Source of the DNA: a candidate division KSB1 bacterium
Lineage (GTDB): Bacteria; Zhuqueibacterota; Zhuqueibacteria; Residuimicrobiales; Krinioviventaceae
DNA length: 64,000 bases
NCBI GenBank assembly: GCA_034521575.1
Contig: JAXHMJ010000005.1
Coordinates: forward strand, 1,860,001 to 1,924,000
Direction of reading: 5' to 3'
The notes beneath the pieces are model-generated. The model had not been told where the DNA came from, searched no databases, and saw only the letters and a list, made by a program, of their open reading frames with translations. Shown here one piece after another: positions 26,837-43,242 of this stretch. The position numbers were made by a program, and so were the translations under genes. Position 1 is the stretch's first letter. Each line of letters opens with the position of its first letter.

Positions 26837-27199
26837 TTATTCCTTTATATATCGCTTGATTCTGGCGATATCCTCATTTGCTTTATCCCCCTTGTAATAG
26901 ATCTCGATAAAATGCACATGATGAGTCCTTTTGTCAAACGAATATATCACACGCAGGCCGCTCCTGCTGCCTTTGCCTTTGAGTGCTTTGCAGGCAAATT
27001 TTTTAACCTTAAAGACCGATTCATCAGTCTGGAGGTCAGGAATTTGAAAAATACTCTGATTATCAATCCCCTGAATATGCCGCAGCTCGATAGCTGCTTT
27101 TTTCATCACCCTGAAATCCTCTGTCAGACTCGGAAACCTCTTTTTCAGCTTTTTAAACTCTTTTTTAAATGGTTCTGATTCACTGTATATCAGATTCAT
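26837..27199 (-). CDS. RelE-like toxin of a Panacea-type pair
   Basis: A 120-residue basic protein starting MNLIYSESEPFKKEFKKLKK. It ends with RSGLRVIYSFDKRTHHVHFIEIYYKGDKANED, the beta-strand pattern of RelE-family toxins with an elongated N-terminus. Its ATG overlaps the last 20 bases of the upstream HTH/DUF4065 gene. The toxin-after-antitoxin order and the overlap strongly support a toxin-antitoxin unit. No disruption is visible. Confidence 0.8.
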   Translation of the reverse strand: MNLIYSESEPFKKEFKKLKKRFPSLTEDFRVMKKAAIELRHIQGIDNQSIFQIPDLQTDESVFKVKKFACKALKGKGSRSGLRVIYSFDKRTHHVHFIEIYYKGDKANEDIARIKRYIKE

Positions 27200-27980
27200 A
27201 ATCTCTTACGGTTGTTTCGGACGTTCGGTAAAACACCGTTTCATAATCAAGTTCCTCTCCTTCTTTTGCTGTGATCCACGGAACATCCTGATGTGAATAG
27301 TGACTTAATTCCGAAGTATTTTTGCATCCCAGACGGTCCAGAACAAGGTCAATATGCTTGATTTCACAGGCCGTCAGCAAGCTCAAATCAGCAGACCGGT
27401 GCGGCAGATATTTGGTCTGTTCATATGTGAAAAAATTGCTTTTCACCTTTTCAAGGTCTCCCTGTTGTATCATCTGGTCTGTAATTTTTTCAAATTCAAC
27501 AGGCATCGGACCAAAGTAATTCTTGATATACCGGGCTCCGATCAGCTGGTCTTCGTATTTTTCATAATAATCAAAATCAATAAAATATAACAGCTTGTAA
27601 ATCACAGTTTGACCAACATGCGGTTCCGCGCCGCGTTTTTCCAGAATATAGAGCAGAACTTCTTTGAATTTTTCAACCCGGTTTTGCGGCACACTGATAC
27701 GGGTTCTCTGTACAGGCGCATTCTTTACGCTTTGATTAGGCTCTGCTTTTTCTTCTTCGACAACTACTTGATGCTTTGCCGACTCCCGTTCGGCCAGCAA
27801 ATCATTCAGACTCGATTCAAACAAGGCACTCAGTTTTTCAAGCTCACTGAGCGTCAGTTCGCGTTTACCGGCCTCGATTTGCCTATAGGTCTGACGCGTA
27901 CACCCCAGATAGCCGGCAATATACTCTTGGGTGTATTTGTTTTCCTCTCTTTGTGTTTTTATAAATTGATACACCGCCAT
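27180..27980 (-). CDS. XRE-type HTH + Panacea (DUF4065) antitoxin
   Basis: A protein of about 266 residues starting MAVYQFIKTQREENKYTQEY. A helix-turn-helix follows (YIAGYLGCTRQTYRQIEAGK, about 19-38), then a charged linker (85-100). The Panacea/DUF4065 domain contains VIYKLLYFIDFDYYEKY, and KNYFGPMPVEFEK and ends with the variable part. Panacea domains neutralise many unrelated toxins; here the partner is the RelE-like gene just downstream. The HTH points to autoregulation, and a strong promoter with a palindromic spacer is found upstream. AAGGT precedes the ATG at 27980, which I prefer to the longer frame. Confidence 0.85.
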   Translation of the reverse strand: MAVYQFIKTQREENKYTQEYIAGYLGCTRQTYRQIEAGKRELTLSELEKLSALFESSLNDLLAERESAKHQVVVEEEKAEPNQSVKNAPVQRTRISVPQNRVEKFKEVLLYILEKRGAEPHVGQTVIYKLLYFIDFDYYEKYEDQLIGARYIKNYFGPMPVEFEKITDQMIQQGDLEKVKSNFFTYEQTKYLPHRSADLSLLTACEIKHIDLVLDRLGCKNTSELSHYSHQDVPWITAKEGEELDYETVFYRTSETTVRDYESDIQ

Positions 27981-28016
27981 TTTCGTACCTTTTTTTTTCT
28001 CAACACAACTCATCCC

Positions 28017-28045
28017 AATATAATAATGTTCAAATTATTTGTCAA
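28017..28045 (-). promoter_or_regulatory. Sigma70-type promoter of the Panacea toxin-antitoxin operon
   Basis: TTGACA and TATATT are separated by 17 bases, about 37 bases upstream of the antitoxin ATG. The spacer contains CAAATAATTTG, two five-base arms around one base (28031-28041), a reasonable operator for the HTH antitoxin. Confidence 0.7.
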
Positions 28046-28204
28046 GTATTATGTAAATATTTTTTTACATATCCAGAATTCAGACAAACATTTTGTCCAG
28101 CAGACCATGGAATTTTTTCATTTTTCAGGAACACCTGCTAAAAGACACCTCAAAATATTGTTTCATGGCAAATTCATATTAAAACGGCTGTTAATCGATG
28201 TAAA

Positions 28205-28252
28205 TGCAGACCGCCCCAGTGGGTCGGCCCGCAGGACAAACCAAAGCCTCTG
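28205..28252. repeat. Family A hairpin repeat, copy 6
   Basis: GACCGCCCCAGTGGGTCGGCC is followed by CGCAGGACAAACC and TGAATCACACGCTTTCCGG. The tail also follows copy 3. Confidence 0.7.
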
Positions 28253-28442
28253 AATCACACGCTTTCCGGCAAAAAAAGCAAACACCTCATGCTCTGGTAA
28301 ATTGGCTCGGGTTACAAAATTTTATTTCGCAGCCCACCGCTCTGGCGCCCAAATTTCATTTGCAACCCCCTTCTCCGGAGCTGAGTCAAATATTTAGAAA
28401 ACAACAAGAGACTCGTAACAATAATAGTGAGCGAACCCTTTC

Positions 28443-28565
28443 CTCCGAGCTAAAGCCCGAAGCTATGATAAAATTCAGACCGACCGTTTCATAGCCGCGC
28501 GCTTTAGCGCGTATATCCGAATATTCCCCAATCCCCCTCGAGGGGACGTTAGCCCCCGGTCATGA
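28443..28565. repeat. Family C repeat, copy 3 (complete)
   Basis: Here both halves are joined: CGAGCTAAAGCCCGAAGCTA, the CGCGCTTTAGCGCG hairpin, a CCCCCTCGAGGGG hairpin, and TTAGCCCCCGGTCATGA. This is the best reference copy for the family. Confidence 0.75.
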
Positions 28566-28611
28566 AAGAATACTGAACAGCTCGTATGTTGCGCTGGCGC
28601 GGCAACCGTTC

Positions 28612-28722
28612 GCCGCCCCCGCTGAACCGCAGCATCACGATACACAAACAGACCGGCTCCCCGCCTACCGTTCCGCCGGTCTCCGACGGAATGCAGCACG
28701 GACGCTCTGCGTCCCGGGAAAG
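28612..28722. repeat. Family B repeat, copy 2
   Basis: It runs from GCCGCCCCCGCTGAACCGCA through TTCCGCCGG..CGGAATGCAG to CTCTGCGTCCCGGGAA. Similar to copies at 23206 and 30511. Confidence 0.75.
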
Positions 28723-28753
28723 CTAAAAAAGGATAAAGCTGTTGCAGGTTTTT

Positions 28754-29152
28754 TTAATTCTGAATAAAATTTTTAATAAAAAAAGTAAAATCTTTCATAT
28801 CTTGAAAATATTTTTCTACTTCCGCTTGTTCAAATTCAATATATGCATCGTAATCCCCGGTACGGCGAATATCATACGCTTCCCGTACGATTCTACCATA
28901 TTTGACATCAATTTTTCCAGAACGAATAAATTCTTTATTAAACCATCCAATTAATTGTAAATGCTTTGAGCTTTCGAACCCATATTTTAATCCGAGAGCC
29001 AGTAATGAATAAAAAATGCCGTAATATATTCTATTTACGGCAGTATTCAGTTTGCTATTCTCTATCAGAAAATCGACTGTTTCCACTGTTTCCAGTGCCT
29101 GCATGATACGGTATTGTATCAGCTGTTTTCTGTCTTTCTGATCCAGTGTCAT
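28754..29152 (-). CDS. HEPN-domain protein of an MNT/HEPN pair
   Basis: A 132-residue helical protein starting MTLDQKDRKQLIQYRIMQAL. NRIYYGIFYSLLALGLKYGF is typical of minimal HEPN domains, and YDIRRTGDYDAYIEFEQ of their C-terminal part. HEPN proteins in such pairs are RNases or substrates of the paired nucleotidyltransferase, which attaches nucleotides to silence them. The ATG overlaps the stop of the nucleotidyltransferase (ATGA). No stop or frameshift is visible, in contrast to the two decayed pairs of a related system nearby. Confidence 0.82.
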   Translation of the reverse strand: MTLDQKDRKQLIQYRIMQALETVETVDFLIENSKLNTAVNRIYYGIFYSLLALGLKYGFESSKHLQLIGWFNKEFIRSGKIDVKYGRIVREAYDIRRTGDYDAYIEFEQAEVEKYFQDMKDFTFFIKNFIQN

Positions 29153-29472
29153 ACGTAATGTCCGTTTCGAATGGCGTTCTGAAAAACAGGCTGCTTTCCA
29201 CGTGGTTTTTGCAACTCTGTTTCAGATAAAATATGTGTATCCAGAATAATCTCATATTTCAGTTCAATATCATAGCAATAATCCGATATCCTTTTTTTTA
29301 ACTTCCAATCCGGCACATGCTTTACCACAATTAAAATATCATAATCTGATCCCGGCATAGCTTTGTATTGCTGTGAACCGAATAACACGACATCCTTTAT
29401 ACAATTCCCAAGGTGCTGTTTGAGATAATGTTTTAACTCTTTTATTATTTGAATTCTGTCTGTCATAATCAT
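29149..29472 (-). CDS. MNT-type nucleotidyltransferase, partner of HEPN protein
   Basis: About 107 residues, with VVLFGSQQYKAMPGSDYDIL. This is the GS-x(10-11)-D-x-D nucleotidyltransferase motif with both aspartates (SDYD), followed by a third acidic strand in YEIILDTHIL. Minimal nucleotidyltransferases act as antitoxins that modify the HEPN toxin. It lies upstream of the HEPN gene and overlaps it by four bases. ATG codons at 29472 and 29466 are both possible. Confidence 0.82.
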   Translation of the reverse strand: MIMTDRIQIIKELKHYLKQHLGNCIKDVVLFGSQQYKAMPGSDYDILIVVKHVPDWKLKKRISDYCYDIELKYEIILDTHILSETELQKPRGKQPVFQNAIRNGHYV

Positions 29473-29535
29473 ACTCTATTTGCTCTCTTAAACATAATCA
29501 ATCATTAAATCGTATGCAAGAAGAATGTTTGAGGT

Positions 29536-29745
29536 TCAATCTGCAAAGCATCCATCGCGTTTGAGTTCCTCTATAACCCGGCTATGAGGGATGGGTTCTT
29601 CTTCACGCCGCTCTGCTAGTGCAGTCAAATCATGAATATCTTCCACCGGCTGCTCGTATTCCTCAATAGAAAGGATCACAGCCCGCTTTTTGCCCTGCTG
29701 GTCCACAATAAATTCCGGATTTATATTTTTCGGCACCTTTATCAT
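29536..29745 (-). CDS. Phd/YefM-type antitoxin, orphan copy 2
   Basis: About 69 residues starting MIKVPKNINPEFIVDQQGKK. It is nearly identical to the copies at 23883 and 25900 but with EEYEQP for EEYEQL. The C-terminal part (RREEEPIPHSRVIEELKRDG) is intact. The toxin that should follow is cut at the same base as in the copy at 23883, so these two are products of one duplication. The start has a weak ribosome site. Confidence 0.7.
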   Translation of the reverse strand: MIKVPKNINPEFIVDQQGKKRAVILSIEEYEQPVEDIHDLTALAERREEEPIPHSRVIEELKRDGCFAD

Positions 29746-29920
29746 GACCACCTTAAAAAAATATGAAATTCCTGAAATAAAGAAAAGAATTTCTTTCGTA
29801 TTCAGCGGTTTTTCAAATTTTCGGCAATACTGGACGCGTATTGCCGTAAATTGCGTCTGAAATGAGATTTTCATTCCCTGCTGGCAGATTACCTCATTCC
29901 TCAGCCATCCAGGACAGATA

Positions 29921-30943: not shown

Positions 30944-33900
30944 TTACGCTGCAGTCTGTTCATAAAACGGCGACGGCAGCGTTTCATAAACCCGCCGCAC
31001 ATGAATAAAAACCTCATTGGCTTTAGATGTCACATCCTGTTCGGTGTACCCTCCCACAGGCAATCCGGTTTTTTCACTCCACAGAAAATCGCGTATGGCA
31101 ACCTGGACCGCATCGCGTGTGGATTCTTTGTCAGTCCAGTGATCCACTCGCAATTGTTCTTTTTTCAGCGTCTCCAGCAATTGTTTGGAAACGCCTTTAA
31201 TGCGTTCAATATCCCTGGGTGAAAGATCCGGTTTTTTCAATAAATCAAACACGGCCAACTGTTCCTCCGTCAAGCCTTCTCGCGCAGCGCGGCTTTGCTC
31301 CTGATCCATCTCCTCAACAAACTTTAATAATTCCTCAAAGGTTTGTTCAATTGTGGCGCGGTCTTTTTCACGATTATAAGCGGCCACAATGTCTTCGTAA
31401 TGACGCTGAAAATCAGTGCGCATGGGATTTTGCTGCAATAACCGTTCAAGCCGCTGTTCAACAGCGGTTTTCAAATTTTTCACGGTTGTGTGCTGCGCAT
31501 GATGGCGTTCAAATTCCTGACGCAATCGCTCAAAATCAATTTGACTGATATCATAAGGACCGCATTCATCCGTAATGCCAGTTTTTTCCATCTCAATGGC
31601 CTCATCCACAACCGTGTGCAGCGAACGCAGGATATCGGTGATATCGGCCTGATAGCTGTCTTTCTGCAGACATTTATAAATAAAACTGATCGCTTGATAA
31701 TCGATCCGATATTCGTTCACGCTTTTGATCGTCAAACAGGCTTTGAATTTGGTAAATACAGCGCGGCACAGCACTTCAAAACGTTTGCGGGTTTCGTCGT
31801 TTTCATTGGCAGCCTCCTTGGCATCCCGAATCGCAGCGTTGCGCTCAAAACTGGACTCTGATGACATCGCTTGCAAAGAGGCGCCGCCTGCACTCAGGAA
31901 TTCCCGAACCAGTTGGATGCTCTCCACCAGATCATCCAACAGCTTTTTATTAGGAGCGGCAGGTTGTTGTTTGCTTGACTCTTCACGTCCCTGATCACCC
32001 GTGCCGCTAAACGTCGCCAGGGCTTGACGCAGGTTTCGCAGGATTCCGCAATAATCGACAATCATGCCGTTGTTTTTACCTTTATTCACCCGGTTGGCTC
32101 GGGCAATCGCCTGCATCAGAGTATGCGCTTTCAGCGGCTTGTCCAGATACAGTGTCGATAAACAAGGCACATCAAAGCCGGTCAGCCACATGGCGCAGAC
32201 AATGGCGATTCGAAACGGATGTTCTTCCTGTTTGAATGCATCATCCAAAGCCATGCGCTGCATATTGCTGAATTGCGGTTTTTGCCGCATTTCCGGCGTT
32301 AAATCAATTCCATCTTTGATCAGTTTGCGATGCGGCAGGATATTCAGATCCCATTTTTCAAATTTTTCGACTTCGCCCTGTTCTTCACTGACCACCACAG
32401 CCATTCGGGCTTGCCGCATCCAGTCAATGTGACGCTGGCGCATTTGCTCCTCCTGGTCATCATTGGCCTCACCAATATCGGCTTCCAGGCGGGAAATCCG
32501 TTGCTGCCAGTATATTTCAATGAGATCATACATGCGTACACAGGTGATCTTGTCGATGCACACCAGCATGGCTTTGCCGTTCTCTCCGGCTACAGAATAG
32601 TGTTCCACAAAATCTCGGGCCACCTGATCCAGACGTTTTTGTGCGGTAACGATATGATAATCGCGTCGCAGCTCCTGCTCCAATCTCTGCTGCACATCGA
32701 CATCCTGGATCTCCAGTTCTTCCAGCTTTTCTGCAATGCGTTCATTCAAATCACCAATAGCCACCCCCAGTTTATCACCCCGAGCGTCATAGTACAAGGG
32801 AACGGTTGCCTTGTCTTCAACCGCGCGCTGAAAATCATAGGTGGAAATATAATCTCCAAACACCTGTTTGGTGATTTGATCGTTTTTGAACAACGGCGTG
32901 CCGGTAAAACCGATATAACTGGCATTGGGCAAGGCGTTGCGCATATTCAATGCCAGCGTGCCATACTGGGTGCGATGCGCTTCATCCGTAATCACGATAA
33001 TGTCATCCCGCTCGGTATAGGGCTGATGCGGTTTCACCTCCGGACTGAATTTCTGGATCAGGGAAAAAATATGCGACTTGTGCTGTGAGAGCAGTTCTTC
33101 AAGATTCTCACAACTGGTGGCGCGGCAGGGATTGCGGTCGTTGTTGACCACCCCGCACCCGGCAAAGGTTTTGTATATTTGCGTATCCAGATCCTGACGG
33201 TCGGTTAGAATGAGAAATGTAAAATTACCACCCAGTTTGCGGTGAATTTTACGCGAGAAAAACACCATGGAATAGCTCTTGCCTGCGCCCTGAGTGTGCC
33301 AAAACACACCCAATTTGCCGTCTCGCTTTTTTCGTTCGATAACGGAATCTACAGCCCGATTCACGCCCAAAAATTGATGATTGCGCGCCAGGATTTTTTT
33401 GGTATCACCTGTAGAATCATCGAATACAATGAAATTTTCCAGCAAATCAATAAAATTATGTTTCTCGCAGACCCCCTTGAGCAATGTCTCCATATCCACA
33501 GCCCCCGCTTCATCTTCATGCAGGCGCTTCCATTCAAAAAAATGTTCAAATCGACTGGACATTGATCCCATTTTGGCATCAATGCCGTTAGCCAGCACCA
33601 CAAAGGCATTGTGATGAAACAGGTGCGGAATGCTTGTCAGATAGTCTTTGAAATTTTTCTCATAGGCAGCTCGGATATCCTTGCTCAGATTTTTCAGTTC
33701 CATGAACAACAACGGCAATCCATTGACAAATCCAACAATATCAGCACGACGATGGTACAAATCACCCTGCACCCAGAGCTCACGCACGCACAGAAAATGA
33801 TTATTCAAGGGATGTTCAAAATCAATCAAACGCAACCGTTGTCGCCGCCGTTTTCCATTTTCATCTCTAAACGTGACAGTCAACCCCTTTCGCAAAAGCT

Positions 33901-34192
33901 CGTATTTTTCCCGATTGACGGCGATCAAAGACTGCATGGACGAGGTACTGACAATCTGACGCACCGCATCGTCATAAACATTTTCCGGCAAAGCCGGATT
34001 CAGTTCAATGAGTTTTTGACGCAGGTAACGGGTCAACACCACGTCACGATCGGATGCACGGCCAAGCAGACTATCCGGACCAAAATCCTCCCGATTGTAA
34101 GCGTACACCGAGTCCCATTTCAGCTCATTTTTTAGATATTCAGCCGTGGTTCGCTGGACGAGGTTGTCTTCCGTGTAATCTGAGGGTGTCAT
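30944..34192 (-). CDS. hsdR: Type I restriction enzyme, R (motor/nuclease) subunit
   Basis: A full-length 1082-residue HsdR. The nuclease domain has Asp151 in RADIVGFVNG and ELK at 165-167. The superfamily 2 motor has Walker A THTQGAGKS-like WHTQGAGKSYS at about 299-308, DEAH at 403-406, GFTGTPL at about 428-434, and QAIARANRVNKG as motif VI. A helical C-terminal region that binds the methylase follows (after about 750). It translocates and cuts unmodified DNA. It is the last gene of the defence operon, separated from hsdS and hsdM by three inserted genes, with 38 bases to the upstream protease gene. No disruption is visible. Confidence 0.95.
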   Translation of the reverse strand: MTPSDYTEDNLVQRTTAEYLKNELKWDSVYAYNREDFGPDSLLGRASDRDVVLTRYLRQKLIELNPALPENVYDDAVRQIVSTSSMQSLIAVNREKYELLRKGLTVTFRDENGKRRRQRLRLIDFEHPLNNHFLCVRELWVQGDLYHRRADIVGFVNGLPLLFMELKNLSKDIRAAYEKNFKDYLTSIPHLFHHNAFVVLANGIDAKMGSMSSRFEHFFEWKRLHEDEAGAVDMETLLKGVCEKHNFIDLLENFIVFDDSTGDTKKILARNHQFLGVNRAVDSVIERKKRDGKLGVFWHTQGAGKSYSMVFFSRKIHRKLGGNFTFLILTDRQDLDTQIYKTFAGCGVVNNDRNPCRATSCENLEELLSQHKSHIFSLIQKFSPEVKPHQPYTERDDIIVITDEAHRTQYGTLALNMRNALPNASYIGFTGTPLFKNDQITKQVFGDYISTYDFQRAVEDKATVPLYYDARGDKLGVAIGDLNERIAEKLEELEIQDVDVQQRLEQELRRDYHIVTAQKRLDQVARDFVEHYSVAGENGKAMLVCIDKITCVRMYDLIEIYWQQRISRLEADIGEANDDQEEQMRQRHIDWMRQARMAVVVSEEQGEVEKFEKWDLNILPHRKLIKDGIDLTPEMRQKPQFSNMQRMALDDAFKQEEHPFRIAIVCAMWLTGFDVPCLSTLYLDKPLKAHTLMQAIARANRVNKGKNNGMIVDYCGILRNLRQALATFSGTGDQGREESSKQQPAAPNKKLLDDLVESIQLVREFLSAGGASLQAMSSESSFERNAAIRDAKEAANENDETRKRFEVLCRAVFTKFKACLTIKSVNEYRIDYQAISFIYKCLQKDSYQADITDILRSLHTVVDEAIEMEKTGITDECGPYDISQIDFERLRQEFERHHAQHTTVKNLKTAVEQRLERLLQQNPMRTDFQRHYEDIVAAYNREKDRATIEQTFEELLKFVEEMDQEQSRAAREGLTEEQLAVFDLLKKPDLSPRDIERIKGVSKQLLETLKKEQLRVDHWTDKESTRDAVQVAIRDFLWSEKTGLPVGGYTEQDVTSKANEVFIHVRRVYETLPSPFYEQTAA

Positions 34193-34230
34193 AAATTGCT
34201 TTCGTGTGCTCTATTGTAGATCATTTTTTT

Positions 34231-36745
34231 CTAAATTTTCGTCGGAATCGTTATACCTATCTGAGTGGCGACCGGTGTATACAAATCAATTTCTTCCTCT
34301 GGTGTGTGAATGGATACCACCAAAGAATATCGGGTTTTGGAACTCCATTTTCCCAAATAAGCCCGTTCACGCCACCATCCTATTTGAGGTGTTACAGCGA
34401 TTAAATTCGATTTGGCCAATTCAGCAGCTGTGCCTTTCCAGATATCTGAATGTATAGATCCCTTATCCCGAGCTTGTCCAATGGTCCAATGATCTGTTTC
34501 ACTTTTGGTTTCCAGTGTTTCATCTTTGCTCCGCGCTGCTTTATTGACTCTTTTGATAAATTCCCGTTTCGACTCTGTTGGTGAAATCAATTTAAATCTC
34601 AAAGCATGAGAAGCATAGCGATATCTTTCCTTCCAACCGATCTGACCGGGTCCGGGCTCTATGAAATAGGACAAGGTGATTCGCATGCTGACTTTCGTTT
34701 CATCCGGTAACGACTGTAATACATGCACAGGCCATGGCAAGTCATACAAATGCATATCTTTGGTCTGATAACCATTCGACTTTTCTTTTTCATTATACTT
34801 TTTATCAAAGGGTTGAATCTCGGATTGTGCAATCAAAGTCAGAGAATTGGCTGCACTGTAAAGGGCGCGTTCCAGATTGGGCACGCCATATCCACAAATC
34901 GTTAGCAAGCGGGCATAATCTGTTTTTGAACCATCGACGCTAAATTGAGATTTCAATACATCCGTCCATTCGGCAGAGTGGATCAAAAGAGCTCGTATCG
35001 TTTCCGGCCAAAACTCTGGATATCTCACCTGAATTTGAGCGGCCATCCAGGCTGCCTGTGCGGTTGCAGCACTGGTCATATTAAAACTTTGAAAATGACT
35101 GTGCTGTGGATCATAATGAGTTGACAATAAAGAAAGATCATCACACTCGGACGTAAAATTTTTGCCATCAATAGCGAGATTTCCGCCTTCTAACACGATA
35201 TCCGGTTTTAAAGGCCATTTATTATCTTCCCAGGTCACAGAAGTCGTGGAAAAAGGCGACAATCCGCCTTTAGGAGCAAGTGGCCTATACTCAGAAAACG
35301 TTTTATCTTTAATGGTATCCAGATCGGTAAAAGCACCTACTGCAATGGCATTCCAGGATTGCGCCGGATCATGTACTGAATCAGTCAACTGTGCAGCGGG
35401 ATACTGATTCCAGTTTTGCATATCAGCATTACCCGCGCAAACAATCATCAAGCGCCTTGTATCGTCATCCACTCCGGCAGCCAATTGGTCTAACTTGCCT
35501 GACCACGACGTGGGACGGCCTCTGTCGCGTGTATCCTCAGCGGCGACGGCCATACAGATAATGCGATTTGTATCAGGCGATTGTATTTCAGCCAGGCTGA
35601 TTCCCTGTAAAGTCATATCACCCCATAGTTCATGTGACTTTTTAACCGAGTCAAAGGGTATGATCTTGACGGATTCCAGACCATGGTTAATGTGAACAGA
35701 CTGATTGTTTGATAAAATCTTGATCAAATCTCCATAACCGGCTAAACCCGCCATTAATGTCCCATGTTTTACCTGATCATGTATTCCCCATTTGGAATTT
35801 ACCGTCTGACAATCGTCTACCTTTATCAGAGGAGAAAGCAGGGGATGTCCGCAATTCACACCGGTATCCAGGATACAAATGGCCACATCCGGATTCTCTG
35901 TAAATACTGTTCGTTCGAGCAAGTCCTCTACCCATTCCGCCTGTTCTTTGTTGGGCAGCGTGACCCAAAAGTCCGCAGTTGTTTTGGCGCGTCTGTATTC
36001 GGCAATATTATCAGATGAGAGAGATAGCCGTTCGAGGTCTTTACGAGACGCCAAAATCATTTTTACAGTTCGTTCAGGGAAACGAATAAATCCTGTTTTT
36101 GCTTCAATGCGGAGTTTTTTTAACAAAGTATCAAACTTTGATATAATATCATCCTTGTCACTGCTCAGACCAGACTTCACACCAAACCGGATCATCACCC
36201 GGAATTAATGATCGATCATCAACCCAGAATGAATCAATGGAAAATGCTTTATGAATATCGGAAATACTGTTGACCAAATCGGCATTTTGTGGCCGACCGC
36301 CTCTGGTTTCTTTTTCCTGATATTCATTGATTTTCTTGAGAAAATGGTCTTTTTTTGAATTTGCCACATAAACCGTGGCATAGGTTGTCGCCGCCTCTTT
36401 ATCGAATTTTGCGTCCTTGTCTTTGACTTTTGTTTGTTCTGTGCGAACATTCAACAAGCGTATTTTTTTTGACCGCATATCTTCAAGACTTTTGATGACC
36501 AAATCATCCCCGGGGTCACTTTTAAACTCTAAATAAACGCCCTGCCGTTCATAAACAGCGACAAAGGACTGTTCCGATTCGGCCTCTTGCCAGGCTTTAT
36601 TCAATCGCTTTCTCAGATAAAGACTGTGTGTATTGCGATCACGATCAGGAATTCGTTTTTCTCGCCATCCTGATGGTGGAGAAGTAAATGCGTAATTTTC
36701 CGGATGATCCTTTAATAAAATATGTGAATAATGTTCACCCGCCAT
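34231..36745 (-). CDS. S8 (subtilisin-like) peptidase of an AAA/S8 defence pair, one apparent frameshift
   Basis: Two overlapping frames together make about 840 residues. The first (36745 to 36158) starts MAGEHYSHILLKDHPENYAF and ends near DPVWCEVWSEQ. The second continues SSDKDDIISKFDTLLKKLRI. The catalytic region lies in the second: Asp in CILDTGVNCGHPLL, His in KHGTLMAGLAGYG, the oxyanion Asn in VCAGNAD and Ser in NMTSAATAQAAW. Known phage-defence associated S8 proteins of this type (PGAP name IteS, from memory) are single chains of about 800-850 residues with an N-terminal region like the first frame. One extra base between about 36150 and 36200 would explain the split. Alternatives are a real two-subunit gene or programmed frameshifting. 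The AAA ATPase gene ends 15 bases upstream, suggesting a joint ATPase-protease function. Confidence 0.82.
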
Positions 36746-36759
36746 TGGTTCCCCCGTGT

Positions 36760-37713
36760 TTAGTCTTGAGCGTATTTGCGTTCCTTTAACGTCGCCGCCA
36801 ATATGGATTCATCGACTTGTTGATCATAGAGAATAGCATTCTTGATGGCGTCCCGACAAGCCAAATCAATTTCCGCTTGACTGAGGGACTCGCTTATGGT
36901 TAACAGGTCATCCCATGTAAAGCTTGACGGTTTGAATGTGCCCAACACGTTTTCGATCAGTTGTTTTCGTTCGGATTCAGTGGGTTTGTCATATTGCATC
37001 ACATCGTCAAAACGCCGGAATAACGCCCGATCCAGTAAATTCGGACTGTTGGTGGCCGCCACAATCAGACTGTCCGAGGCATCCTGTTCGATAAACTGCA
37101 AAAATGAATTCAGTACCCGCCGCATTTCACCGACATCGTTGTCCAGTGAACGTTCTCCGCCAATGGCATCAAATTCATCAAACAGGTAGACTCCGATATC
37201 CTCCTGAATCAATTCAAAAATTTGCCTCAATTTGGCGCTTGTTTCGCCCATAAATTTTGTCACCAGACGGTCCACCTGAATGGTGTGCAGCGGCAGACGC
37301 AGTTCATGCGCCAGCACTTTGGCGGTCATGGTTTTGCCGGTTCCCGGCGGTCCGGTCAATAATACTTTACGACGATGTGACAATCCATGTGATTTTAATT
37401 TGTTCTGTTGACGGAACTCGTGAATGATGCGTTGAATTCGTTGTTCAAGCTCGGGCTTGATCACCAGCGCGGATTTGGGCACATTCGGTTGTTCGGATTG
37501 CACCAGCCCGAGCATATCTTTCGGAAACCGCAAGACCACGGCTCCCCGGTTGCGGCGATTTTTGTCAATGATATCACGAATATCATGCGCCAGCGCTTTG
37601 TGCCCCTGTTTTGCCTCGTGCGCCGCCACTTGCAAGGCAATGGAGTAAAACCGCTCGGAATCGCTGCTCAGATGCGAGCGGATCAATGATTTTATGTGTT
37701 CAGCGGTGGCCAC
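36760..37713 (-). CDS. AAA+ ATPase of an AAA/S8 defence pair
   Basis: A 317-residue protein with one AAA+ module. Walker A GPPGTGKT is at 121-128, Walker B YLFDEFD at about 176-182, sensor 1 AATNSP at 220-225 and the arginine finger RRFD at about 233-236. The N-terminal 115 residues (VATAEHIKSLIRSHL start) are a helical, probably substrate- or partner-binding, part. I choose the GTG at 37713 because AGGAG stands six bases before it; an ATG five codons earlier and longer frames lack a site. It probably drives or gates the S8 peptidase encoded immediately downstream, as in AAA/S8 pairs known next to defence genes (PGAP names IteA/IteS, from memory). Confidence 0.85.
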   Translation of the reverse strand: MATAEHIKSLIRSHLSSDSERFYSIALQVAAHEAKQGHKALAHDIRDIIDKNRRNRGAVVLRFPKDMLGLVQSEQPNVPKSALVIKPELEQRIQRIIHEFRQQNKLKSHGLSHRRKVLLTGPPGTGKTMTAKVLAHELRLPLHTIQVDRLVTKFMGETSAKLRQIFELIQEDIGVYLFDEFDAIGGERSLDNDVGEMRRVLNSFLQFIEQDASDSLIVAATNSPNLLDRALFRRFDDVMQYDKPTESERKQLIENVLGTFKPSSFTWDDLLTISESLSQAEIDLACRDAIKNAILYDQQVDESILAATLKERKYAQD

Positions 37714-37873
37714 GCTTGCTCCTGTCATATTGATAAAACAAGATACTGGTCTTGAGGGCAGAAATTGCAATGTAACTGTTAAAATGTAAGAAAATCCTGT
37801 TTCTTAATCAAAGTGTTTTCAGTGCCATTTATGATTAATTATATATTTAGATGCAAACAGATAGCATCGCCTC
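37714..37873. other. AT-rich gap inside the defence operon
   Basis: A 160-base gap between the DUF262 gene and the AAA gene, the longest within the defence operon. It could hold a secondary promoter, but I see no convincing -35/-10 pair or terminator. Confidence 0.4.
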
Positions 37874-39979
37874 TTACTCTTCATCATGACCGTTTCCCAT
37901 CTGTTTTTCAAATGCCTGACGTACCAATCCCATGATATAGGGCAAATCTGCCGATTTACTTAGACAAACTTCAACATCACCATTCCCCCACCGTCCCAGA
38001 TTGGTTACATCTTTGGCTATTTTGCGGGGATCGGACAACTCATGATATCGCAAATTCAAAGATAATCGTAACCTGCTTTTTTGTGGAACAACATCAAGAA
38101 AATTGGTTTCTGCCTTGTAGGCAATATACAACTTTAGTATTTCTTCGGTGACACAGTCATCAAGATCAAAAACAAGTTTTCGCAAGGATTCGAATAATCC
38201 ACGTACTGCAGTTCCTTTTGATAACTGGGGGTGGTCATCAAGAGAATAACCCGCCGTTCTATCTGTTTTTGGTTGAAATTGTTTTAAAATATCATCGGAT
38301 AACTCGGGTGATTTCCAAACTCGATTCGCTTCTGTTGCAAGACATTGGGCACGTTCATGGATTGTCTGTTCATTCCACGAGTCCATTTCGCCAAGACCTT
38401 TATTCAATTTGATCGGACTTTGCTTAAAGCCTCCTTTCATATCGCGTTTTTCAACAAATGATCTGTCGCTGTATTCACTGTTATATCCGGTCAATGTCAG
38501 ATTACCCAACGTATGCAGCCATGTTGCTTGTATTTGTTGCCAATTGTCGCCTAATGCCTCTCTCCACTTTGCTGACAAGTTTTCATTTTGTGGAAGGATA
38601 TGTTCAATCGTATACTCGTCCACCAATACTCGTTCCTTATGTTCATGATTTTCAAGCCGTCGGAAGAGGTAACTGCGACGTGGAAAGTTGTACAGATCCC
38701 GGGTCGATAGTTCGCGTTTGAATTCTTCATCATTCGGGAATCTTCGATAGGACGGCAATGATAAAAAATGAGCCTTGATGCTGTCCAGATATTGATTCTT
38801 TTTTAAAATGCGTCCAAAATTGGCAAATGTTTTATTGAGTGAATTGGTGGGGATAGAGCATACCGCTCTGCGAAAAACATAGGCTTCTATGAACCGAACA
38901 GCAGAAACAAAATCATCTTTTGCAAGATCATTTTGTTTATAATCATGATACAACTCAAGCAACAAGGGAAACGCAACATCTACTTTTAACTCTCTCAAGT
39001 CCTGAAAGGCCTCTGACAATTCTCTATCAGGCTCTTTATCCAAAGCCATAGCACAATAATACTCTGCAAACATGTGAATATCTTGAACCAGTGATTCAAC
39101 ACCGTGCTGTATGATTTCAGGGGTGCACGCATAAGCTTTGAAAGCTTCGTAAACCGCCCGGATATTGGGTATTTCGCCGGTTTTAAATGTCAAATAATGT
39201 CGAATAAAACTGTCGAACTGCTTGCCGTATGCTTCTTGACCGAATTCAACTTCCATGGGACGCCAATGATATTTATAAAGCACTTTTTGTTTTTCTGAAT
39301 CCAGTCCCATCAGGATAAAATTTCTGATTAAATCGGCTTGACTCAACTCCCGACCCGTTGAATTCATGCTTTCAAAAATAAGTTGAGGATTGTCCTGGTC
39401 GCGGTTAAGCGAGATATCGACGATCATGAGTTTCGCAAGTCCCTGGCAAAGGGGAACCAAGTCATCACCAAGGGATTTGACTTTATCCATAAAATAAGTA
39501 AAATTTTCCATGATACGCAGTGAATGGTCTTGAGGTGTTGACTTTTGCTGTATGAGCGATAACAGCGTTTCTTTATCCGTTTGCGTTAACAGCAACTTGA
39601 AAGCGTGTTCATCCTCTTCCAATGGATTCAAGAGATAATAACTGCGTATTTTTTTTGCGGAAAACCCATCCAATGGCTCTTTATCTCCCAATTGCCGAGC
39701 CAATGCCTCCAAGATCAACATGACCGTGGTCAGCCGTTGCTGCCCATCAATTACCAGCAAAGGGGATTGGCTGCTCACCTGATAAAGTCCTTTTTCAATA
39801 TAAACAATCGAACCGACAAAATGCGCCGAGATATTTTCATTATTCCCGGTTCGAATAATATCTTCCCACAACTGTTTACATTCCCGATCTGTCCAGCTAT
39901 ACGTTCGCTGATAAATGGGGATGATAAATTGCTGAGATTTTTTTAAGAAATCGAGGAGTTTGGCTTCGGTTGCTTGCAT
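37874..39979 (-). CDS. DUF262 + DUF1524 protein (GmrSD-like)
   Basis: A 701-residue protein starting MQATEAKLLDFLKKSQQFI. The DUF262 domain (GmrS-like, DndB-type fold) has IPIYQRTYSW at 20-29 and VIDGQQRLT at 77-84. FESMNSTGRELSQADLIRN is near 202-220. The DUF1524 His-Me-finger nuclease has EHILPQN at 459-465 and LGNLTLTGYN at 491-500. A C-terminal part (after about 590) resembles DUF5655-type tails. GmrSD enzymes are NTP-dependent restriction enzymes acting on modified phage DNA. Its start overlaps the end of hsdS by 37 bases, so it is embedded in the type I operon. No break is seen. Confidence 0.88.
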   Translation of the reverse strand: MQATEAKLLDFLKKSQQFIIPIYQRTYSWTDRECKQLWEDIIRTGNNENISAHFVGSIVYIEKGLYQVSSQSPLLVIDGQQRLTTVMLILEALARQLGDKEPLDGFSAKKIRSYYLLNPLEEDEHAFKLLLTQTDKETLLSLIQQKSTPQDHSLRIMENFTYFMDKVKSLGDDLVPLCQGLAKLMIVDISLNRDQDNPQLIFESMNSTGRELSQADLIRNFILMGLDSEKQKVLYKYHWRPMEVEFGQEAYGKQFDSFIRHYLTFKTGEIPNIRAVYEAFKAYACTPEIIQHGVESLVQDIHMFAEYYCAMALDKEPDRELSEAFQDLRELKVDVAFPLLLELYHDYKQNDLAKDDFVSAVRFIEAYVFRRAVCSIPTNSLNKTFANFGRILKKNQYLDSIKAHFLSLPSYRRFPNDEEFKRELSTRDLYNFPRRSYLFRRLENHEHKERVLVDEYTIEHILPQNENLSAKWREALGDNWQQIQATWLHTLGNLTLTGYNSEYSDRSFVEKRDMKGGFKQSPIKLNKGLGEMDSWNEQTIHERAQCLATEANRVWKSPELSDDILKQFQPKTDRTAGYSLDDHPQLSKGTAVRGLFESLRKLVFDLDDCVTEEILKLYIAYKAETNFLDVVPQKSRLRLSLNLRYHELSDPRKIAKDVTNLGRWGNGDVEVCLSKSADLPYIMGLVRQAFEKQMGNGHDEE

Positions 39980-41124
39980 ATGGTGATTTCTCCATTCATT
40001 AATTTGGGTAAAAGTAAATCACGAACCTTTGACAAAGTATCAATTTCCTTTATTAGGAGATAAATTTGTCTATGTATATCACTCGCATAATTTTCGAACA
40101 ATCTCAATATTTTATCGTCGGGAATTATTACAGATCTGCTATGTGCAAAATCACGATTTAAACCCGGTACTGCAACATCTGTGCTAATAAATGTTATATT
40201 TTTTAATGCATAATATAAATAATAGGAACAATTTTTATTCTCAATGTAATAAACTGTATCAATTGGGTAACAATCATCATAGGACCAAAATATTTTGCCC
40301 ACATTTCCTTTTCTCCCAATAATTATTGCTGGGCCTGAAATCAATGAACAAGAATGATAACCAATAATACCACTAGAGCCATAAACTGGGAATGGGCCTA
40401 TTTCACGATTACTTTTTTTTAGTGATTTACCATAATTTAATGGGGCAACATCACCCAAATGGTTATTTTCCCACCCCTCCGGCACCCCATCCACAATCTT
40501 TGCATGCTCATGTCCCGGAAACCGGAGATGCACAAACCACTCCCGGTACAGCAAGCGCGCCGAACGTTCCAGCAGCTGAATACGACGGCGGTTGTTTTCG
40601 ATGAGGTCGTCGTAGGAGGAGAGGATAGAAGCAATTTTTTCCTGTTTGGTTAACGAAAGATCATCAATTTCGATTTCTTTTAATCGCTCAATTGTGTATG
40701 CAGATTGTGAAGTACCGATAGTACATTTATGAAGTTGTGATCGTCCAATAGGTGATAACAACCAATAGTAAAAAAATGTACTATTCAATTTTTCAATATT
40801 CTTAAACCATATCAAATTTCCATCTTTAAAATAAAATTCATCATCAGAAGTTACAATATATGGAATACCAAGAGTTCCTACTGAAGTAATAAGTATATCA
40901 CCTTTTTCAGGTGCACCATATTTGTTTTTTATCAACTCAAATTTCTCTCGTGAGATATATAAATTGCTCCTCAATTCACCGTCATGTGCAAATCTCTGTA
41001 CAATTTCTCTACCTCTTATAAATGGTATACCATTATCAACATAATCGGATGCGTAGATACGTTTGCTCGATGTAATATGACAGTAATCTTTTAACTTGTT
41101 TTTACGATTATGGCTCGAGTTCAT
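39943..41124 (-). CDS. hsdS: Type I restriction-modification, S (specificity) subunit
   Basis: A 393-residue HsdS with two target recognition domains and two conserved helical spacers. TRD1 covers about residues 1-150. The spacer LTKQEKIASILSSYDDLIEN and NNRRRIQLLERSARLLYREW lies at about 157-197. TRD2 covers about 205-340 (with LNYGKSLKKSNREIGPFPVYG). The second spacer ends IDTLSKVRDLLLPKLMNGEI. It selects the bipartite DNA target for the methylase and the nuclease. The ATG follows the hsdM stop by only six bases. The TRDs are AT-rich relative to the spacers and hsdM, as is common for exchanged specificity segments. Confidence 0.93.
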   Translation of the reverse strand: MNSSHNRKNKLKDYCHITSSKRIYASDYVDNGIPFIRGREIVQRFAHDGELRSNLYISREKFELIKNKYGAPEKGDILITSVGTLGIPYIVTSDDEFYFKDGNLIWFKNIEKLNSTFFYYWLLSPIGRSQLHKCTIGTSQSAYTIERLKEIEIDDLSLTKQEKIASILSSYDDLIENNRRRIQLLERSARLLYREWFVHLRFPGHEHAKIVDGVPEGWENNHLGDVAPLNYGKSLKKSNREIGPFPVYGSSGIIGYHSCSLISGPAIIIGRKGNVGKIFWSYDDCYPIDTVYYIENKNCSYYLYYALKNITFISTDVAVPGLNRDFAHSRSVIIPDDKILRLFENYASDIHRQIYLLIKEIDTLSKVRDLLLPKLMNGEITICKQPKPNSSIS

Positions 41125-41130
41125 AATATA

Positions 41131-43242
41131 TTATATTCCCAACTCCTCAAAATTCCTCTTGATCCGTTCCGCCAGTTCCACCGCTTCGGCGTTCAAGGCA
41201 TCCAGTTCTGTGTGAATCTCGCGCAGGGTTTCCTCAAAATCAAAATCCTCGTCTTCCTCCTCCGGCGCCACGCCCACATAGCGTCCGGGGGTCAGCGACC
41301 AGTCATTGGCCTGCAGCTCGGCATGATCCACCCGTTTCACCAGCCCCTCCACATCGCACAGCTCGGCATCCGGAAAGCGTTCCGTGAGCCAGTGCGCCTG
41401 TTTCCAGACATAGCGCACCGGTTTCAAGGTCTCCACCGCAGCAGCGCGCGCGGCATCGATCTTTTTGCGCAATTGATTGATCGGTTTGCGCGGCCAGGCG
41501 TCGTGCGCTTTGGCGTCATAGTCGTTCTCACACAATTCCAACAGCTGAGCGGCCTGCTTGACCACCAGGTCCGCCTGTTTGATCAAATCGCGGCTTGCTT
41601 CCGCTAGAGGCGACAAGCGCTCCACAGCCTGTTTGAGCGCGCCGTTGTGTTTATCCTGCTCAGCCCAGCGCTGTTTTTGTTCGCCAAACCTATGTTTGAA
41701 TTTTCGAACATCCTCTTCAAATGCAATGACAGCATGTTCATAGTCCAGACTGCTTTTGTCAAGTTCCGCGTGTCCCATGGCCTCGACAAATGGCCGAACC
41801 GCTTCGCGCATGCTGTGAATTTGCGTCGCAAATCCGGATAGCGGTCGGACAGGTTCATTCGCATCGCTCTCATCAGACAGACACTGATCGCATTGATCCA
41901 GCATGCGCTGACAATACCCGGCCACGAGGTCCAGATAGCGCTGTGTTTGTCCGCGGTACAGCCAGACCATGGCGAGCAGATTCTGTTCCTGTTCGGGACT
42001 GAAATCATAAATTTTGCGCGTCACCTGCCGATAGACATTGCGCGCATCGATCATCAGCACCTTGTCGCGGTGTTCTTTCGGTTTGTCGCGGTTGAGAAAC
42101 CACAATTCACAGGGCACGGACCGCGTATAAAAGAAATTGGACCGGATCGCCATCATGATATCCACCGCCCCGGTTTCGATCAGTTTTTGCCGCACCTTGG
42201 CCTCATCGCGGCCGGCGCTGGACGCCTGGGATGACATGACAAATCCGGCGCGCCCGGTTTCATTCAGATAGCTGTAAAAGAAACTAATCCACACGTAATT
42301 GCCGTTCGGCACTTTATCGTTTTTATTCTTGCCCGGCAACCCAAACGGCATGCGTGAATCGCTTTTGACACTGTCCGCGTCGATCTCGTCCACATTGAAC
42401 GGCGGATTCGCCATCACATAATCGGCTTTGCCAACCAGAGCATGCGGATCCTGATAATAGGTAATCGCCTTTTGAATATTGCCTTCCAGACCGTGCACCG
42501 CCAGATTCATCTGGGCCAACCGAATGGTGGTCGAATTCTTTTCCATGCCGTAAAACGTCAGGCGTTCCGCCGGATTGTCACCGTGCTCCCGTACGGTGCG
42601 TGCACTCTGCACAAACATGCCACCCGAACCGCAGGCCGGATCCAGAACAATCCCGCCGTTTGGATCCAGCACATGCGCGATCATGGACACCAGGGAAACC
42701 GGGGTGAAAAATTCGCCATTGTCGTGCGCCTTGAGATCTGCGAATTTGGTGAGAAAATATTCGTAAATGCGGCCAAATACATCACCGGACACCTGTTTCA
42801 GGGCATCCGGATTCAGATATTCCAGCATTTGTTGCAAAACATCATTATCCAGTTCCTGATATTCACTTTTGGGTAAAATGCCTTTTAGACTGTCATAATC
42901 CTGTTCAATGGACTCCATGGCCTTTATGACGGCCTTGACGCGGTCTTTATCTCCGGGCAGGGAAACCAAATGATCAAATTGCGCTTCGGGGCGCAGATAA
43001 ATGGCATTTCTGCGCGAAAAATCTTCTTTGCTCAGGGGACGTGTTTTGCCGTTGCGTTTCGGCAATCCGGCAACAATCTCATCTTTGACCGCCAGGAATC
43101 GGCTGTAAGCGTGTCGCAGAAAAATAAGCCCCATCACCGGCAAAAAGTATTCATTGCTGGCATAATTGGAATTGGCCCGCAAGGTATCGGCAGCGCTCCA
43201 GAGGCGTTTTTCGATGGTTTTAATGTGTTCAAGTTGGGGCAT
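41131..43242 (-). CDS. hsdM: Type I restriction-modification, M (methyltransferase) subunit
   Basis: A 703-residue N6-adenine methylase. It starts MPQLEHIKTIEKRLWSAADT with the HsdM N-terminal helical domain. SAM-binding DPACGSGGMF is at 201-210 and the catalytic NPPF at 279-282. It is longer than common HsdM proteins (about 500 residues) because of a C-terminal extension (about 440-700) with coiled-coil-like stretches and an acidic EEEDEDFDFEE tail. I choose the ATG at 43242, since eleven extra upstream codons are not family-like. It heads the defence operon. A TATAAT is found about 60 bases upstream. Confidence 0.93.
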   Translation of the reverse strand: MPQLEHIKTIEKRLWSAADTLRANSNYASNEYFLPVMGLIFLRHAYSRFLAVKDEIVAGLPKRNGKTRPLSKEDFSRRNAIYLRPEAQFDHLVSLPGDKDRVKAVIKAMESIEQDYDSLKGILPKSEYQELDNDVLQQMLEYLNPDALKQVSGDVFGRIYEYFLTKFADLKAHDNGEFFTPVSLVSMIAHVLDPNGGIVLDPACGSGGMFVQSARTVREHGDNPAERLTFYGMEKNSTTIRLAQMNLAVHGLEGNIQKAITYYQDPHALVGKADYVMANPPFNVDEIDADSVKSDSRMPFGLPGKNKNDKVPNGNYVWISFFYSYLNETGRAGFVMSSQASSAGRDEAKVRQKLIETGAVDIMMAIRSNFFYTRSVPCELWFLNRDKPKEHRDKVLMIDARNVYRQVTRKIYDFSPEQEQNLLAMVWLYRGQTQRYLDLVAGYCQRMLDQCDQCLSDESDANEPVRPLSGFATQIHSMREAVRPFVEAMGHAELDKSSLDYEHAVIAFEEDVRKFKHRFGEQKQRWAEQDKHNGALKQAVERLSPLAEASRDLIKQADLVVKQAAQLLELCENDYDAKAHDAWPRKPINQLRKKIDAARAAAVETLKPVRYVWKQAHWLTERFPDAELCDVEGLVKRVDHAELQANDWSLTPGRYVGVAPEEEDEDFDFEETLREIHTELDALNAEAVELAERIKRNFEELGI

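Follow-up and report, generated by a model that had tools for sequence, protein, structure and literature searches.

A type I restriction operon holding a GmrSD-type gene and an IetAS-like AAA/S8 protease pair between hsdS and hsdR

Within the window (the whole 64,000-nt stretch of DNA that was analysed), six genes follow each other on the minus strand at positions 30944-43242, in the order hsdM, hsdS, a GmrSD-type gene, an AAA ATPase gene, an S8 peptidase gene and hsdR, and the domains of all six exceed their Pfam cut-offs. ORF translations and domain tests bore out the order, strand and coordinates given in the original prediction, together with its 37-base overlap between hsdS and the DUF262 (GmrSD-type) gene, located at 39943-39979. 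It had also described six genes with little spacing; the order stood, but the S8 gene is made up of two overlapping frames instead of a single ORF. The features, from hsdM onwards, are the following:

41131-43242, minus strand: hsdM, type I methyltransferase subunit (HsdM_N and N6_Mtase; PADLOC MTase_I, E 1.2e-257; DPACGSGG and NPPF in the translation, which we take to be its motifs)
39943-41124, minus strand: hsdS, type I specificity subunit (Methylase_S, E 3.2e-28, in two stretches; PADLOC Specificity_I, E 1e-104)
37874-39979, minus strand: GmrSD-type (type IV) restriction gene with a C-terminal DUF5655 (GmrSD_N, E 4.3e-36; GmrSD_C, E 9.3e-25; DUF5655, E 2.7e-12)
37714-37873, minus strand: intergenic gap of 160 bases ahead of the AAA/S8 pair
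36760-37713, minus strand: IetA-like AAA ATPase (PADLOC IetA, E 7.8e-76; GTG start by homology)
36158-36745, minus strand: N-terminal region of the S8 gene, 195-aa ORF (corresponds by profile to the N-terminus of relatives with a single frame)
34231-36198, minus strand: catalytic part of the IetS-like S8 peptidase, 655-aa ORF (Peptidase_S8, E 7.1e-62; PADLOC IetS, E 4.2e-32)
30944-34192, minus strand: hsdR, type I restriction/translocase subunit (TIGR00348, 505 bits against a cut-off of 284.55; HSDR_N and SWI2_SNF2)

YidD is the gene preceding hsdM. Scanning for promoters and terminators was uninformative: 25 promoter sites were found where shuffled sequences gave 23.9, and 17 terminator sites where they gave 14.0. 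The hsdM, hsdS and hsdR genes carry the domains and catalytic residues of a type I system. For hsdM, the ATG at 43242 that had been proposed originally fits better than the TTG of the longest ORF (43275), because the homologue at locus L016 begins nearby. In HsdR, residues D151, E165, K167, G302/G304/K305/S306 and D403-E404-A405-H406 are invariant across 19 HsdR proteins, and HSDR_N was detected in all 19 proteins tested, that of the window included.

The third gene combines DUF262 and DUF1524 with DGQQR and a His-Me finger (EHxxP), as expected of GmrSD; its translation contains DGQQR, FESMN and EHILPQ, motifs named as such in excerpts of PMC11411939 and PMC12707154, and it matches the PADLOC profiles Orf5 (2.7e-199) and HEC-06 (1.1e-68). 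GmrSD genes inside type I operons have already been published, according to excerpts of PMC11411939 and PMC4619093. The exact six-gene order with GmrSD, for which the original prediction had suggested a search, was absent from all other loci among the 80 S8 relatives examined. A DUF262-profile match appeared at only one of these 80 loci (L053), outside any hsd operon; since only two sequences underlie this profile, it may overlook distant GmrSD genes. The contexts of the GmrSD gene itself were read in seven records, six plasmids and one E. coli chromosome. In Ruegeria (L097), the gene stands in one row with a methyltransferase gene, hsdS and a helicase gene, and in E. coli KE47 (L094) and Sulfitobacter (L095) it lies near hsd genes on the opposite strand. 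The incomplete PLSDB gene tables annotate no type I genes within 8 kb of it in L096, L099, L100 and L101. A methyltransferase gene and a helicase gene do occur in L100, on the strand opposite to the GmrSD gene.

As in IetAS, the AAA gene is directly followed by the S8 gene, and the two match the PADLOC IetA and IetS profiles. The AAA gene probably starts at the GTG at 37713 and not at the TTG of the longest ORF (37770), which leaves the 160-base gap behind the DUF262 gene. No other gap in the operon is sizeable; in L069 and L078, cargo genes are separated from the AAA gene by 299 and 230 bases. The stretches GxPGTGKT, DEFDA, K-F/Y-MGET and RRFD are conserved in the window and ten relatives, the first three presumably being Walker A, Walker B and a pore-loop-like element. 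In the catalytic part of the S8 peptidase, D111, H145, S376 and N257 are invariant with respect to three relatives. Along its entire length, the S8 protein of the relative L021 is about 39-40% identical to S8 proteins encoded on Agrobacterium plasmids, presumably including pTiC58 with IetS. The names IteA/IteS, the NCBI spelling of IetA/IetS, had been given in the original prediction and do exist as NCBIfam NF042959 and NF042956, but the window proteins score far below the curated cut-offs (216 bits against 510 and 55.5 bits against 900, respectively). Because these NCBI equivalog cut-offs are not reached, we file the pair as IetAS-like and not as an equivalog.

The S8 gene of the window departs from IetAS in lacking a single intact frame, being split into two overlapping frames of 195 and 655 codons. 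In contrast, 73 of the 80 relatives have a single open S8 frame of at least 790 codons, and intact relatives carry the N-terminal and catalytic parts in one frame of about 800-900 aa. The 195-aa ORF by itself gave no PADLOC match. The N-terminal S8 region was also considered as a subtilase propeptide. A structure model (pLDDT 84.4) contains a ferredoxin-like domain at residues 177-261 whose matches include the propeptides of PCSK9, Aspergillus alkaline protease and POIA1 with Z of 7.3-7.7. Domains of the ACT and ribosomal S10-like kinds match equally well, and a Foldseek search with the model gave zero matches with E below 0.001, so that a propeptide is no more than suggested. Given the split, any last-resort function of the protease may be dead or altered in this genome. 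It is nearly an even call whether the AAA/S8 pair has become a pseudogene here, leaving an operon of type I plus GmrSD only, a reading compatible with all the others considered below. Each of six long RND-family genes in the genome occupies a single frame, so that frequent indel errors are not evident, which agrees with true decay. However, the AAA gene and the S8 active-site residues are both intact, and the draft assemblies of L016 and L064 likewise show what look like broken frames. Moreover, another S8 gene of the genome is in two frames and a fragment of 149 aa is among the RND matches, and therefore a local assembly error may explain the split.

The original prediction had staked its case on the AAA/S8 and DUF262 genes occurring near hsdMSR beyond this genome, and for the AAA/S8 pair such loci were found in several phyla. 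Counts were made on the loci with readable flanks in the set of 80 relatives closest to the S8 gene. Of 66 readable loci, 18 have hsdR within 4 kb downstream of S8 in the same orientation and none has it in the opposite one; of 59, 15 have hsdS upstream of the AAA gene in the same orientation, again with none opposed; and hsdS or hsdM never follows S8 in the same orientation in the 66. Complete hsdM/hsdS-AAA-S8-hsdR operons account for 12 of the 44 loci in which both flanks are readable over at least 3 kb. The remaining 48 of the 66 loci have no hsdR within 4 kb downstream, a figure that becomes 47 (and the positives 19/66) when L015, whose hsdR ORF overlaps the S8 end beyond the 150-base limit, is added by hand. 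L013, a partial gene, enters no count. Several of the S8-hsdR junctions are tight, with spacings of -4 (L016), -1 (L049), -4 (L052), -1 (L054), -4 (L078) and +2 bases (L079), and the HsdR partners of embedded pairs are divergent, at 22-73% identity to the window HsdR.

Operons of the order hsdM-hsdS-AAA-S8-hsdR are present in several phyla. In samples drawn by phylum, the pair is followed by hsdR at 9 of 44 loci, or at 6 of 41 once the seeds are removed, and opposite-strand or other orders appear in L123, L137 and L177. These samples overlap the first set (L118, L121, L152, L153, L154 and L165 match L014, L066, L071, L079, L059 and L038), and a second match of G1040 was left out. The hsd labels come from iterated profiles built from the window genes and are confirmed by Pfam for 19 hsdR genes and by PADLOC for L157; those of L177 (50 bits) and L137 (48 bits) are weak. 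These observations indicate that the embedding seen in the window is no local accident.

The pair has other homes as well. In L034 it is found inside a BREX operon (PglX-AAA-S8-PglZ-BrxL), in L119, L128 and L072 it lies beside type III genes, and in type I loci the hsdS-AAA interval may hold other cargo, namely GajA/GajB, a complete Gabija pair, in L078 and PDC-S11 in L049; these loci were hand-picked and so give no rate. A viral home was rejected, as hsd-like genes adjoin the pair only in L137 among 21 viral-contig relatives, with weak scores and on the opposite strand; at the viral-contig relative L132 an hsdM-like gene lies by the pair. An S8 match occurs in 428 plasmid records, and in the one whose surroundings were read (Alteromonas, H1) the incomplete gene table annotates no restriction gene within 8 kb of the pair.

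To follow the embedded state, its changes on the S8 tree were counted as gains or losses, the trees leaving out L011 and L012 (same contigs as L063 and L074) and L015 and L064 (no S8 ORF of 600 aa). With 80 rows, 20 of them RM-labelled, there were 17 changes against a shuffled mean of 18.0, 14 of them forced by starred branches; with the 65 rows whose right flank is readable, 18 of them labelled, there were 14 changes against 15.9, 13 of them forced. Such scatter does not support one common entry of the pair into type I operons: the embedded state was gained or lost many times. Distances correlated between AAA and S8 (r 0.507, p 0.0004), between hsdM and S8 (0.453, p 0.02) and, almost perfectly, between hsdM and hsdR (0.988), but weakly between hsdR and either AAA (r 0.228, p 0.15) or S8 (r 0.254, p 0.06). 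The pair thus follows hsdR at most weakly; any coevolution of the two is weak and a contact tailored to HsdR is not indicated. Together with the 48 of 66 readable loci that lack a downstream hsdR, this speaks against tight coupling.

Recurrence across phyla and the published GmrSD genes in type I operons make the operon well supported as a layered composite in terms of architecture. As to function, we tentatively favour, just short of calling it probable, a type I operon with two further defence modules between hsdS and hsdR that would combine layered restriction with a protease as last resort. Judging from domains, HsdMSR would methylate self DNA and cut unmodified foreign DNA, and the GmrSD-type enzyme would cut modified-cytosine DNA that resists HsdR. 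Judging from its family, the subtilase would be restrained by the AAA ATPase and act once these layers are blocked, much as the nuclease PrrC acts from within the EcoprrI operon, where prrC presumably also sits in the hsdS-hsdR interval; as with PrrC-type guards, an effector gene is embedded in the hsd operon. The modules may be jointly regulated, or the protease may fire upon restriction failure. Finding this pair at the same position across many unrelated bacteria suggests that a backup for a failed first defence is built in, and excerpts describing IetS-type proteases as toxins (PMC8562856, PMC5006074) and PrrC as a toxin encoded within a type IC operon (PMC3874165, PMC12707154) are in line with a last resort. 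A wider proposal, which we consider doubtful, is that IetAS-like pairs serve ATP-driven restriction systems in general as guards: recruited repeatedly into type I, type III and BREX operons, they would monitor the motor and free a cytosolic subtilase upon phage inhibition, a proteolytic infection stop and protease counterpart of PrrC.

The hsdS-hsdR interval could instead be a tolerated insertion site with a shared promoter, each module working independently, an account that is distinctly possible while less than probable. It agrees with the covariation of AAA with S8 and the weak following of hsdR, with label changes near the shuffled number on the 65-row tree, with the differing cargo of such operons and with the lack of a downstream hsdR in most readable relatives. 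However, the near-fixed orientation and order in the 80 loci and the frequent S8-hsdR overlaps exceed what a shared location needs, and in excerpts of PMC11411939 the protection that tgvAB alone gives against several phages is 10-100 fold below that of the complete cluster. We regard it as very unlikely that AAA/S8 alleviates restriction by unfolding and cleaving HsdR or other restriction motors, sparing the host chromosome as ClpXP does with EcoKI. An AAA protein with a pore-loop-like stretch beside a protease and hsdR, the adjacency of the pair to other ATP-driven restriction systems and the ClpXP precedent (excerpts of PMC12707154 and PMC12255303) fit such a role; the scarcity of downstream hsdR genes, the weak covariation with hsdR and the reports of IetS-type proteases as toxins of stand-alone pairs speak against it.

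Individual cases of type I operons with an embedded toxin or second restriction enzyme are known, GmrSD and DarTG being published (PMC11411939, PMC4619093 and PMC12255303, in excerpt), and our literature search found no report of IetAS inside type I operons. Here, a toxin-antitoxin-type protease pair lies repeatedly in the hsdS-hsdR interval, with divergent HsdR partners, in several phyla and with BREX and type III parallels. A puzzling lone operon thus becomes a testable class, which raises the questions of what the subtilase targets and whether blocked restriction is sensed, and the intact homologues identified, among them the L021, L050 and L078 operons, are suited to functional tests.

Compared with known systems, as far as the cited excerpts describe them, the operon resembles TgvAB (PMC11411939), whose GmrSD-type genes are nested in a type I operon and add restriction of modified phage DNA; TgvAB requires two proteins, whereas the window encodes one two-domain GmrSD protein with DUF5655 plus the AAA/S8 pair. 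Pairs of an S8 subtilase toxin and an AAA antitoxin (IetAS, SgiAT and mycoplasma TA132-133; PMC5006074, PMC8562856) share the order AAA gene then S8 gene, but are stand-alone toxin-antitoxin or stability modules, while the pair of the window lies between hsdS and hsdR and has a split S8 frame. DarTG2 of the EPEC type I operon (PMC12255303) is likewise a toxin-antitoxin pair between hsdS and hsdR, of another toxin family, and that operon is preceded by the repressor gene rptR, the hsdM of the window by YidD. PrrC of EcoprrI (PMC3874165, PMC12707154) is a toxic effector encoded inside a type I operon that guards against a restriction inhibitor; PrrC is an anticodon nuclease, whereas the window holds a protease pair with a putative guard function.

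The type I restriction operon of the window carries a GmrSD-type gene, followed by an IetAS-like pair of an AAA ATPase and an S8 peptidase, between hsdS and hsdR:

41131-43242, minus strand: hsdM (Pfam and PADLOC)
39943-41124, minus strand: hsdS (Pfam and PADLOC)
37874-39979, minus strand: GmrSD-type gene (Pfam and PADLOC)
36760-37770 (ORF; start probably GTG 37713), minus strand: AAA ATPase gene (Pfam and PADLOC)
36158-36745 and 34231-36198, minus strand: S8 peptidase gene, two frames (Pfam and PADLOC for the catalytic frame)
30944-34192, minus strand: hsdR (Pfam and PADLOC)

Spacing is 6 bases between hsdM and hsdS, -37 between hsdS and the GmrSD-type gene, 160 between the latter and the AAA gene, 14 between AAA and S8, and 38 between S8 and hsdR. 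Taxonomically, the window's genome falls in the same order as genome G044, whose contig piece L012 matches L074, labelled candidate division KSB1, without a difference over 4865 bases. Toxin-antitoxin-like genes lie just beyond hsdR (27180-29874):

29536-29874: RelB/Phd-like antitoxin
28754-29472: MNT/HEPN pair
27180-28013: HTH-SocA/Panacea antitoxin

The nuclease and motor residues of HsdR were invariant in an alignment of 19 proteins. The GmrSD protein combines motif-bearing DUF262 and DUF1524 domains with a C-terminal DUF5655; an NCBIfam search gave no match, and PADLOC grouped it with Orf5 and HEC-06, the latter reported as antiviral (PMC12988326). In PADLOC, the AAA protein matched IetA (7.8e-76) and the S8 part matched IetS (4.2e-32), yet both fell far below the NCBI equivalog cut-offs (NF042959/NF042956). 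A related S8 protein, from locus L021, shares ∼39-40% identity along its entire length with S8 proteins encoded on Agrobacterium plasmids, and its full-length model (pLDDT 68.7) gave a best Z of 17.8 to SubHal over 366 residues (rmsd 3.7), which identifies it, at modest confidence, as a subtilase. IetAS of pTiC58 is described as a toxin-antitoxin system (Yamamoto 2009, as cited in PMC8562856 and PMC5006074).

The original prediction treated the S8 peptidase as a single gene, a description that has to be revised: it appears split into an N-terminal frame of 195 codons and a catalytic frame of 655 codons, which overlap in different frames. The 195-aa frame alone had no Pfam or PADLOC match, while all other genes of the operon were recognised. 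Among the 80 closest loci (best 80 of 513 relatives), 73 hold a single S8 frame of at least 790 codons; in the other seven, the ORF is cut by contig ends (L015, L080, L086, L088), shortened inside (L040) or looks frame-broken (L016, L064). Despite the split, the window S8 retains its catalytic residues. Alignment with L021 places the break at the initial strand of a ferredoxin-like domain immediately N-terminal of the catalytic domain, the usual place of the subtilase propeptide; the fold match of this domain is not specific. The split may be genuine or an assembly error. Six long RND genes of the window's genome each occupy one frame, and there is also a fragmentary RND match of 149 aa. Another S8 gene of this genome (G000:C5:2060618-2061260) likewise appears in two frames.

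We then examined how often this arrangement recurs, retaining the best 80 of 513 S8 relatives found in the genome collection. Of the 66 loci whose right flank spans 1.5 kb or more, 18 have a same-strand hsdR no more than 4 kb downstream (opposite strand, 0/66); of the 59 whose left flank is at least that long, 15 have a same-strand hsdS no more than 6 kb upstream (opposite strand, 0/59). In 2/59, hsdR was upstream, one being a 91-aa fragment, and neither hsdS nor hsdM was found downstream on the same strand (0/66). Where both flanks reached 3 kb or more (44 loci), 12 were complete hsdM/hsdS-AAA-S8-hsdR operons, and HSDR_N was found in 19/19 HsdR proteins tested, including that of the window. 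The seven further S8 places in the window's genome served as a small control: no match to TIGR00348, the hsdR model, lay within 10 kb of any of them. The same genome has a second TIGR00348 hsdR (G000:C5:27404-29932, 368.8 bits in one frame).

In even draws from three phyla, the S8 gene occurred in 12/395, 12/387 and 19/392 genomes. We read 44 loci, three seeds (L027, L049, L091) and 41 fetched, and found hsdR after the pair in nine (L027, L120, L122; L049, L151, L153, L157; L091, L162), or 6/41 without the seeds; since L153 matches L079 in layout and length, these represent five new operons, not six. Contig ends near the pair at several loci make these counts lower bounds. At L157, OloA/OloB-like genes lie upstream of the pair and no hsdM or hsdS was recognised. 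Elsewhere, hsdMSR adjoins the pair on the opposite strand (L123), a weak hsdS lies downstream (L159), weak hsdS- and hsdR-like genes lie upstream (L177), or there is only an hsdM-like gene (L164/L165). The window's own phylum has the S8 gene in 5/82 genomes, the window's included; in one locus (L010, family f23), an hsdR-like gene starts ∼0.8 kb downstream.

S8 genes embedded in type I operons were scattered across the S8 tree. With 20 of 80 rows embedded, the tree required 17 changes versus 18.0 in shuffles, at least 14 being forced by supported branches; with 18 of 65 readable rows, it required 14 versus 15.9, at least 13 being forced. Distances between operons, computed on 11 to 17 operons, gave r = 0.988 for hsdM-hsdR, 0.507 (p 0.0004) for AAA-S8, 0.453 (p 0.02) for hsdM-S8 and 0.233 (p 0.20) for hsdM-AAA, and correlated weakly for S8-hsdR (r = 0.254, p 0.06) and AAA-hsdR (r = 0.228, p 0.15). 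The HsdR partners share between 22% and 73% identity with the window's HsdR. Taken together, the tree scatter, the correlations and this identity range indicate that the AAA/S8 block either joined divergent type I families many times at the same place or was lost many times; it is not a constant component of a single lineage.

The cargo between hsdS and AAA also varies, in loci that were picked by hand and give no rate:

window: GmrSD
L078: GajA+GajB (1.5e-178, 7.6e-250)
L049: PDC-S11/DUF4268
L069:6132-8183: orphan of 683 aa
elsewhere in such operons: DarG-like macro protein (L077), SIR2 protein (L064), PDC-M19A (L151)

The Gabija pair of L078 (4552-8210, a Geobacteraceae genome) is complete, in an hsdM-hsdS-[GajAB]-AAA-S8-hsdR operon. 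The 683-aa protein had no match in Pfam and PADLOC searches and is a candidate defence gene. The AAA/S8 pair also occurs in other host systems, in loci likewise picked by hand: between PglX and PglZ-BrxL in a BREX operon of Marinomonas algarum (L034:4277-16852), after a type III methyltransferase and before a UvrD-type helicase (L128:1377-12847), after a type III methyltransferase and a candidate PDC-S46 (L119:11552-16590), and after a DNA methylase-ResIII pair (L072). A Ruegeria sp. TM1040 megaplasmid (L097:4311-13489) holds, in one row, genes for a methyltransferase, HsdS, a hypothetical protein, a relative of the GmrSD protein with 58% identity, and a helicase.

Embedded defences are reportedly the topic of Payne et al. 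2024, which may mention IetAS in type I operons. Among the openly licensed papers searched, we found no report of IetAS inside such operons. Already published are GmrSD genes within type I operons, as well as RloF, PrrC and DarTG2 (PMC11411939, PMC4619093, PMC12707154, PMC12255303).

Domain content, gene order and the recurrence of that order are established here. As to mechanism, the S8/AAA proteins may, with less certainty than the GmrSD role considered below, be a toxin and its keeper, and their nesting with restriction motors might make them a last resort upon blocked restriction. Covariation with hsdR is weak, which favours a loose link, such as common expression or the sensing of some event, over a tailored contact. 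A rival reading, in which the modules merely share a location, is nearly as probable as a last-resort function. For the latter, the model would be PrrC, which plays this part once restriction fails. The GmrSD protein, judging from its relatives, would add restriction of modified DNA, as proposed by analogy with TgvAB, which restricts modified DNA and is likewise encoded within a type I operon (PMC11411939).
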